From NCBI GenBank assembly GCA_009691405.1, contig SICN01000006.1, forward strand, positions 1-55,543: a stretch of DNA of 55,543 bases, written 5' to 3'. The stretch's first letter is position 1. Each line of letters opens with the position of its first letter. Source of the stretch: Candidatus Peribacteria bacterium (GTDB lineage Bacteria > Patescibacteriota > Gracilibacteria > Peribacterales > Peribacteraceae). Positions 35,168-36,441 of the stretch are shown here, one piece after another. The position numbers and the translations under genes are program-made. Below the pieces are notes generated by a model. It saw nothing but the letters and a program-made list of their open reading frames with translations. It was not told the DNA's origin and searched no databases.

Positions 35168-35293
35168 TTAACCCCTGAGGTTATTGATCGGAAGGCTTGC
35201 AACCATGACAACAGTGACAAGAGCAATAAGTGCCATATGAGCCACAAGAAGCCTGAGAGAGATGCCTTTGGAGATGCGAAAAGTGGAGTTCAT
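35168..35293 (-). CDS. 41-aa TM micropeptide ending in LRG
   Basis: Reverse strand: MNSTFRISKGISLRLLVAHMALIALVTVVMVASLPINNLRG*; resembles the N-termini of the window's surface proteins. Confidence 0.4.
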   Translation of the reverse strand: MNSTFRISKGISLRLLVAHMALIALVTVVMVASLPINNLRG

Positions 35294-35416
35294 AATTTTG
35301 GGGGAGCGGAATTGTAAAGCCACCTTTTCTTTTGTCCAGAAAATCGAACAAATAATGTGTTCAATAAAGCCTCTTTTGCTCGAATGTCATTCCTTCGGTA
35401 CGATAAAAAAAGACGT

Positions 35417-35492
35417 CGGGACGTAGCTCAGTTGGTAGAGCGCGTGGTTCGGGACCACGAGGCCGGAGGTTCGAGTCCTCTCGTTCCGACCA
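35417..35492 (+). tRNA. tRNA-Pro (anticodon CGG), CCA encoded
   Basis: CGGGACG TAGCTCAGTTGGTAGAGC CGTGG TTCGGGA CCACG AGGCC GGAGGTTCGAGTCCTC CGTTCCG ACCA. Confidence 0.95.
35459..35492 (+). repeat. 34-bp direct repeat, copy 1 (3' part of tRNA-Pro)
   Basis: gaggccggaggttcgagtcctctcgttccgacca. Confidence 0.97.
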
Positions 35493-35517
35493 TATTCATT
35501 CACCACATGCTTCTTCA

Positions 35518-35799
35518 ATGACCACAGGAGGCTTCCTCTACATGCTGAAGAGTCACAGTGACAGCTCTTTTTATTTTGGTTCCACGAGTGATATCAATCG
35601 TCGTCTTGCGCAACACAATAATGGAGAATCATCGTCGACTCGTACAAAACGGCCGTGGGTATTAGTATTTGTAATGAAATTCGATCAGGTTGCTCAGGCA
35701 AGAAAAATCGAACAGACTCTCAAGGCACAGAAACAGAAAATAACACCCCCACGTTTACTCCTCGCCATTGCCGATTACCTACGTCGAGCAGAAGAGTAA
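35518..35799 (+). CDS. GIY-YIG nuclease domain protein
   Basis: MTTGGFLYMLKSHSDSSFYFGSTSDINRRLAQHNNGESSSTRTKRPWVLVF...QARKIEQTLKAQKQK; GIY-YIG core with R, H and E residues retained. Confidence 0.9.
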   Translation: MTTGGFLYMLKSHSDSSFYFGSTSDINRRLAQHNNGESSSTRTKRPWVLVFVMKFDQVAQARKIEQTLKAQKQKITPPRLLLAIADYLRRAEE

Positions 35800-35817
35800 A
35801 GCGCCCCGCGGAGCGGG

Positions 35818-35851
35818 GAGGCCGGAGGTTCGAGTCCTCTCGTTCCGACCA
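35818..35851 (+). repeat. 34-bp direct repeat, copy 2 (duplicated tRNA-Pro 3' end incl. CCA)
   Basis: gaggccggaggttcgagtcctctcgttccgacca, identical to 35459..35492; preceded by a CCCCGC-GGA-GCGGGG hairpin. Confidence 0.97.
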
Positions 35852-35955
35852 ACCTTCGCAGAAGGTTGTCCGCCGAAGCCCGCAGCGAAGGTGGACATCA
35901 CTTCAATTAACAACATCTACGTCCTTCTGCTTCGGCTGGCAGGCAATTCAATATC

Positions 35956-36441
35956 CTACTTCACCTCCTTCAGCGTGCCCTGCGCAACGAGGACTTTCCC
36001 GAGGTAGATGCTTACAGCATTGTAGCCCTTCACATCGGTTTGGGTTGTGAGCTCGACTGAATGACGGGTGTCCCCGAGAATGCTCTCGAGAATTCCCACT
36101 TCCATCGTCACATTCGTCGAAGTATTTCGAAGCATTACTGAGTAATTCGTCTTCTCCGGTGCCTTCAGGATATTCACATTCACCGTCACCACCGAGGAAC
36201 CGTCCTTAAACCTGCGAAGGTAACCGATACCATTGGCCTTCGCGGGAGCGACACCCGAGACTGCGCCGTACGAGAAAAATGTCTGTGCCCCATGAACAGG
36301 ATCCACAGGATCATCTCCTTTCTGAATGACCTGATTGTATTTCTTTGCTTTATCGACTGCAGCAGGATCGACCGTATCGCTTTTGCCGCATGCGGAGACA
36401 AGAAGAGCTGCAGTGAGGAGAAAGAGTGAAAGTTTTTTCAT
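35956..36441 (-). CDS. Predicted lipoprotein
   Basis: MKKLSLFLLTAALLVSACGKSD lipobox. Confidence 0.75.
   Translation of the reverse strand: MKKLSLFLLTAALLVSACGKSDTVDPAAVDKAKKYNQVIQKGDDPVDPVHGAQTFFSYGAVSGVAPAKANGIGYLRRFKDGSSVVTVNVNILKAPEKTNYSVMLRNTSTNVTMEVGILESILGDTRHSVELTTQTDVKGYNAVSIYLGKVLVAQGTLKEVK

Follow-up and report, generated by a model that had tools for sequence, protein, structure and literature searches.

A small GIY-YIG nuclease gene between tRNA-Pro(CGG) and a displaced copy of its 3' end: probably a minimal homing element of bacterial tRNA genes

The tRNA-Pro(CGG) locus

The window, which is the whole analysed stretch of 55,543 nucleotides, is contig C15 of the 1.01-Mb genome G000 of a Candidatus Peribacteria bacterium. 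At the locus considered here a whole host gene is followed by an endonuclease ORF and then by a displaced copy of the host gene's end. The features are the following:

35417..35492, plus strand: intact tRNA-Pro(CGG) gene with the CCA encoded (ARAGORN; Rfam tRNA, 67.9 bits)
35459..35492, plus strand: left copy of the 34-bp repeat, tRNA nt 43-76
35493..35517, plus strand: spacer of 25 bp from the tRNA to the ORF
35518..35799, plus strand: GIY-YIG nuclease gene, 93 aa, one domain, catalytic positions conserved
35804..35818, plus strand: GC-rich hairpin CCCCGCGGAGCGGGG (CCCCGC-GGA-GCGGGG) at the inner edge of the displaced copy
35818..35851, plus strand: right, displaced copy of tRNA nt 43-76, CCA included
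35852..35896, no strand assigned: palindromic repeat directly past the displaced copy, conserved in part in the related genome G001

A preliminary description of this DNA had claimed an exact 34-bp duplication of the tRNA 3' end, about 325 bp between the copies with a single 93-aa GIY-YIG gene in them, and neither an integrase nor an intron. All of this holds: the 34-nt segment GAGGCCGGAGGTTCGAGTCCTCTCGTTCCGACCA is found at 35459-35492 and 35818-35851 with 100% identity and 325 bp between the copies, the GIY-YIG gene (PF01541, E=1.4e-14) is the only gene between them, with no integrase gene there, and no intron family of Rfam matches positions 35200-36100, which speaks against an intron at the locus. 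The block of identity runs from inside the tRNA to its 3' end, and in the entire 1.01-Mb genome GAGGCCGGAGGTTCGAGTCCTCTCGTTCCGACCA is limited to these two places, even with up to 3 mismatches allowed. The GC-rich hairpin, which has a stem of 6 bp, abuts the second repeat copy. Hairpin and displaced copy together (35787-35840) give a sub-threshold tRNA match (19.4 bits versus a cut-off of 29), as if the hairpin replaced an anticodon arm.

The same site in relatives

In G001, the closest relative, the flanks are about 73% identical to those of G000 in nucleotide sequence and the tRNA-Pro is identical. It is followed by the first half of the focal ORF, ending in a stop, which is a decayed remnant of the cassette; the second half of the ORF and the right repeat have been deleted between short AGGTTG repeats. 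Clean excision by recombination between the two 34-bp repeats, as envisaged in the preliminary description, is thus not what happened in G001, where the remnant arose by internal deletion and the right repeat was lost. As to empty alleles at tRNA-Pro(CGG), G001 has the remnant, and G002 has the tRNA-Pro with the same two neighbours as in the window and no cassette, but inverted. The inversion in G002 (L012:1501-1751) comprises the tRNA-Pro together with its upstream region.

Since the cassette is common to G000 and G001, its insertion is older than the split of the two, and it is not safe to explain the perfect repeat by a recent insertion. If 34 bases evolved neutrally with 10-15% change per lineage, they would remain unchanged by chance in about 0.4-3% of cases. 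In view of this low chance, the perfect identity of the right copy is likely to come from gene conversion with the tRNA or from selection.

The nuclease

The focal ORF matches the GIY-YIG family with 54.6 bits versus a Pfam cut-off of 22.6, and residues Y8, Y19, G21, R29, A61, E65 and K69 occupy the conserved active-site positions. In the 93-aa protein Pfam yields only overlapping GIY-YIG and T5orf172 matches and no recognisable DNA-binding module; because a separate module of this kind is lacking, the protein is likened to the I-TevI type in its working but not classed as a member of it. A single-sequence structure model (mean pLDDT 75.5), whose fold match is supporting evidence only, has the order beta-beta-alpha-beta-alpha-alpha. 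Its best matches, of modest confidence, are structures of the UPF0213 type, the top two being PDB 1ywl and 1zg2 (E=0.011 and 0.12).

In the four sister pairs with measurable dS, dN/dS is 0.07-0.23. This is purifying selection, which indicates that the GIY-YIG genes are selected for activity. Some cassette genes are broken, e.g., the tRNA-Met copy in G000 and the G001 remnant at tRNA-Pro. The GIY-YIG gene of the tRNA-Met cassette (L006:1501-1710 on contig C18 of G000) contains an in-frame TAA and is probably dead. A phage origin of the proteins was considered and rejected: the nearest phage matches have less than 60% identity and E values of about 1e-5 to 1e-6.

Association of small GIY-YIG genes with tRNA genes

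G000 has seven PF01541 matches, of which one falls in a long frame of UvrC size. Of the remaining six, five adjoin a tRNA gene, namely tRNA-Thr(tgt), tRNA-Leu(gag), tRNA-Pro(cgg), tRNA-Ile(tat) and tRNA-Met(cat). PF01541 was found in all 57 genomes of the host family that were searched, with 1-16 matches per genome, UvrC included. The comparison covered 116 loci from the genome of the window and those of its family, to which a scan of bacterial species genomes added 80 named ones. It should be noted that they were sampled via the best PF01541 score and a motif, so that locus frequencies are not unbiased.

A tRNA gene lies within 300 bp in 115 of 204 GIY-YIG records, on the same strand in 111 (upstream of the GIY-YIG gene in 83, downstream in 28) and on the opposite strand in 4. 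The protein tree separates a YhbQ-like clade from the rest, and the association with same-strand tRNAs divides accordingly: 9 of 50 testable loci within that clade versus 98 of 134 outside it (Fisher p=1.8e-11). All four opposite-strand cases fall in the YhbQ-like clade; outside it the linked gene is always on the strand of the tRNA (98:0). A cleaner check comes from G029, a single-contig genome of 1.2 Mb with 43 tRNAs: a same-strand tRNA adjoins or overlaps seven of eight GIY-YIG loci, one of which is a fragment (6 of 9 on a strict count that leaves out overlaps and counts one ORF twice), and a random 280-bp ORF of this genome adjoins a same-strand tRNA in 1.07% of draws.

The isotype of the tRNA goes with the protein. 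For 51 of 111 tRNA-linked proteins, the closest relative in the tree lies beside a tRNA for the same amino acid (expected 7.7; at most 21 in 2000 shuffles), and for 99 of 111 it has the tRNA on the same side (expected 68.7; at most 87 in the shuffles), although both numbers may be inflated by vertical inheritance within the family. One clade of 11 proteins is linked to tRNA-Leu without exception, with the tRNA always downstream; its hosts are Nitrospirota (Thermodesulfovibrionia), Bacteroidota (Flavobacteriaceae/Muriicola; Chitinophagaceae), Omnitrophota and several Patescibacteria. Another GIY-YIG clade entered tRNA-Pro(cgg) independently in G062 (L130).

Directly behind tRNA-Thr(cgt) in G000 (L379:1509-1680, contig C21) lies a 104-bp copy, 96% identical, of the leader of the tRNA-Thr(tgt) cassette without its ORF, a hint that the sequence may have moved on to another tRNA of this isotype. 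The sequence past the tRNA-Phe cassette of G068 (L074:1509-2291) adjoins tRNA-Ile(tat) in G083 (L340:1501-2285), and the homology begins inside the tRNA 3' end, as if the tRNA ends had recombined.

Displaced tRNA pieces and palindromes

When the flank that lies across the nuclease gene from the neighbouring tRNA was compared with that tRNA, a displaced tRNA piece with a local score of at least 16 was present in 37 of 110 loci. In the controls such pieces were found in 0 of 110 reverse complements of the flank, 5 of 1100 comparisons with tRNAs of other loci and 8 of 108 flanks beyond the tRNA. Together with the same-strand linkage in 98 of 134 loci, this is the enrichment of GIY-YIG genes with duplicated tRNA pieces elsewhere for which the preliminary description had asked.

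There are two mirror-image forms, and the form goes with the protein clade. Where the tRNA is upstream, as at the focal locus, the displaced piece is its 3' end, mostly of 16-21 nt, with a second group of 31-36 nt that includes the focal 34. Where the tRNA is downstream, the displaced piece is its 5' end, in most cases from nt 1 to about nt 30-35, i.e., to the anticodon (one insertion allowed); these 5' halves mostly end at most about 5 nt from the anticodon. They are interrupted at nt 18-24 and in two cases at nt 15 or 31. At three tRNA-Phe loci the 3' piece begins at nt 37 or 42-43 and has an interruption in the T-loop. Contrary to the proposed targeting of tRNA 3' ends, the elements are not specific to these ends; the second arrangement displaces the 5' half. 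Because displaced halves often begin or end at the anticodon, a break nearer to the anticodon than to the tRNA 3' end is the more likely, as judged from the sequences.

The interruption of the displaced copies is a palindrome. An identical one of 20 bp, CCTGCCTGCYGGCAGGCAGG, occurs in 12 loci from several phyla:

L155:2961-2980, and also L042, L056, L066, L074, L119, L150, L151, L162, L164, L172 and L194: CCTGCCTGCYGGCAGGCAGG

It sits mostly at D-loop or T-loop positions of the displaced copies, also in unrelated phyla, and its density within 250 bp of GIY-YIG genes is 60 times that in the remainder of the same loci (15 in 157 kb versus 1 in 631 kb). L155 is the tRNA-Leu(CAA) element of Muriicola marianensis. 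G029 has six exact copies of the palindrome: two close to tRNA-linked GIY-YIG genes, and four at a distance from both tRNAs and GIY-YIG genes. The focal cassette and many others are without CCTGCCTGCYGGCAGGCAGG; the focal one has the different, GC-rich hairpin at the matching edge. Of 35 loci, 21 have a hairpin with a stem of at least 7 bp bordering the displaced copy on its inner side (13% of shuffled sequences), a number to which the focal hairpin with its 6-bp stem does not contribute. No paper printing CCTGCCTGCYGGCAGGCAGG was found in the open-licence literature.

Displaced 5' or 3' pieces also occur at six tRNA genes of G029, separated from the gene by strongly folding palindromic inserts of 84-192 bp:

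L275:14286, L276:14388, L280:15264, L282:13717, L290:7424 and L305:778: palindromic inserts of G029 without a GIY-YIG gene

None of the six contains a GIY-YIG frame. They may be non-autonomous or decayed elements.

Empty and occupied sites

Syntenic empty sites, which had been named as a check, exist for the sister cassettes at tRNA-Met, tRNA-Thr and tRNA-Leu. In genus g28 the tRNA-Leu(gag) gene is whole in G089, and in G029 it is split precisely at the junction of nt 24 and 25. The G029 insertion, about 490 bp long, contains the palindrome and the GIY-YIG gene, and also a second copy of nt 1-24 and a duplicate of the tRNA's upstream region together with the 3' end of the gene upstream. Compared with the resident upstream region, the inserted one has only 76% identity, while the cassette is 88% identical to that of G091, which indicates that the insert was copied from another lineage. 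Likewise, G001 has uninterrupted tRNA-Met and tRNA-Thr(tgt) genes with matching flanks where G000, of the same genus, has cassettes. The pairs of empty and occupied sites show sharp ends, and in the occupied alleles (the focal, the tRNA-Leu and the tRNA-Met and tRNA-Thr loci of G000) the tRNA sequence is fully restored.

A homing model and its alternatives

The focal cassette is probably a minimal stand-alone homing element of tRNA genes. The small GIY-YIG nuclease would introduce a double-strand break into a tRNA gene of the isotype that it prefers, probably close to the anticodon loop. The break would be repaired from a copy of the element, presumably by copying, which would bring in the nuclease gene and the missing tRNA half. 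One side would thereby regain a complete tRNA, and the half that the host had originally would end up on the other side of the nuclease gene. The structure expected from this, a restored tRNA plus a displaced half, is seen in the empty/occupied pairs of tRNA-Leu and tRNA-Met. Later the copies would decay, as is seen at the focal locus in G001. Cleavage near the anticodon, repair by copying and mobility of the cassettes are all inferred from comparison of sequences.

For the focal locus the model implies that the right 34-bp copy would be the host's displaced original and the left one (35459-35492) element-borne. The two copies being identical, their sequence cannot tell the element-borne from the original half, and the assignment relies on the mobile ORFs (mORFs) of fungal mitochondria (PMC3630166) and on the comparison of G029 with G089. 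The idea of a homing cassette, already put forward in the preliminary description, thus stands insofar as there is a recurrent integrase-free class of GIY-YIG genes with duplicated tRNA pieces and with empty sites of sister cassettes; its restriction to tRNA 3' ends does not.

Several findings count against the homing model. A displaced copy is absent in about 60% of the tRNA-linked loci, and the focal one begins at nt 43, which is away from the anticodon. The lack of a recognisable DNA-binding module in the protein is a further point against the model. The GIY-less inserts of G029 have displaced tRNA pieces, so that such duplications can arise without the gene. And since the tRNA is restored, the presumed target persists in the occupied allele, which could be protected if recognition reaches past the tRNA.

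An unlikely alternative is that the cassette is a non-autonomous mini-island: a tyrosine integrase supplied in trans would have produced the duplicated tRNA end as an attL/attR pair, with the GIY-YIG gene as a passenger. The displaced 3' pieces, whether of some 16-21 nt, reaching from the T-loop to the 3' end, or of 31-36 nt, look like the identity blocks of tRNA-integrating elements, and displaced pieces also accompany GIY-less inserts. However, no integrase is present in the cassettes examined, the one gene is always on the strand of the tRNA (98:0 among linked clades), isotype and side go with the phylogeny of the nuclease, and the mirror-image 5'-half form is unexpected. The diverged upstream flank inserted at tRNA-Leu also fits copying repair and not site-specific recombination.

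Equally improbable is that the palindromic repeats are themselves what moves, with D-loops and T-loops as their insertion sites, and that the GIY-YIG gene only accompanies some of them or makes breaks in trans. This would fit the 60-fold enrichment of CCTGCCTGCYGGCAGGCAGG near GIY-YIG genes, its position in displaced copies split at tRNA nt 15-31 or 55-57 in unrelated phyla, and the GIY-less palindromic inserts with displaced tRNA pieces, but many cassettes, the focal one included, do without CCTGCCTGCYGGCAGGCAGG, isotype specificity tracks the protein, and four of the six exact copies of the palindrome in G029 have neither a tRNA nor a GIY-YIG gene nearby.

The least probable explanation, tandem duplication or slippage at the tRNA with a harmless, strictly vertically inherited gene kept for an unrelated role linked to tRNA or repair, would agree with the purifying selection on the proteins and with a focal insertion that predates the split from G001, but is disfavoured by the patchy presence within one genus, the sharp-ended empty sites, the isotype clades that cross phyla and the decay of copies.

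Relation to known elements

A close counterpart of the homing model is found in the fungal mORFs (in atp6, atp9, cox2 and nad3; Allomyces, Glomus), in which the order is host gene, element-borne copy of the 3' end, endonuclease ORF and displaced native 3' end, and in which the endonuclease is reported to be responsible for mobility (PMC3630166). The anatomy of the tRNA cassettes agrees with such an order: host half, presumed element-borne half, nuclease and displaced half. They differ in that the host genes are bacterial tRNA genes rather than mitochondrial protein genes, that the element is smaller than 0.5 kb, that there is also a mirror-image 5'-half form and that the two focal halves are identical, not diverged as there.

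SegB and its relatives from phages T4 and T6 are, according to excerpts of two papers, freestanding GIY-YIG homing endonucleases that lie beside tRNA genes of many isotypes and are associated with homing and amplification of tRNA segments (PMC2988022, PMC13096335). In contrast to the cassettes they belong to phage genomes and are reported in the intergenic region of tRNAs, and these excerpts do not describe displaced tRNA halves from which the gene is rebuilt. Elements with LAGLIDADG homing endonucleases in rRNA genes of CPR bacteria likewise proliferate in essential RNA genes of similar bacteria, over half of them with group-I-intron-like structure (PMC11270868), whereas the tRNA cassette has no intron and its gene is rebuilt in DNA. 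The 2006 survey of the GIY-YIG superfamily mentions tRNA in other connections only (PMC1564403).

The small GIY-YIG proteins of the UPF0213/YhbQ type, to which PDB 1ywl and 1zg2 belong, are alike in size and fold but mostly not beside tRNAs. Proteins of the SegB type are larger than the nucleases of the tRNA cassettes. Islands integrated into tRNA genes by a tyrosine integrase also have a part of the tRNA duplicated at the far end and an intact tRNA; the cassettes differ in having no integrase, a single nuclease gene, a 5'-half form and an isotype that follows the nuclease.

In the open-licence literature no paper was found on elements of bacterial chromosomes that combine tRNA and GIY-YIG genes with tRNA duplications. 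The kind is already known: the cassettes are a variant of the freestanding homing elements that reconstruct their host gene; the bacterial, tRNA-isotype-specific form of less than 0.5 kb in many phyla appears to be new. Only tentatively can one go further and suppose a distinct class of cellular mobile elements, in which a single-domain GIY-YIG nuclease in less than 0.5 kb would read the isotype via the anticodon region, the tRNA would be rebuilt with each insertion in many bacterial phyla, the 20-bp palindrome would be a working second part and palindrome-only copies the non-autonomous form.

Biological meaning

If the homing model is correct, most small GIY-YIG genes of these reduced bacteria would be selfish elements of tRNA genes and not repair genes, and fungal mobile ORFs would have a bacterial counterpart. 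This would also account for the tRNA fragments and short repeats near tRNA genes. It would provide nucleases of about 80-95 residues, a set in which the target may be readable from the adjoining tRNA, and the coexistence of a nuclease with the target that it restores would become testable.
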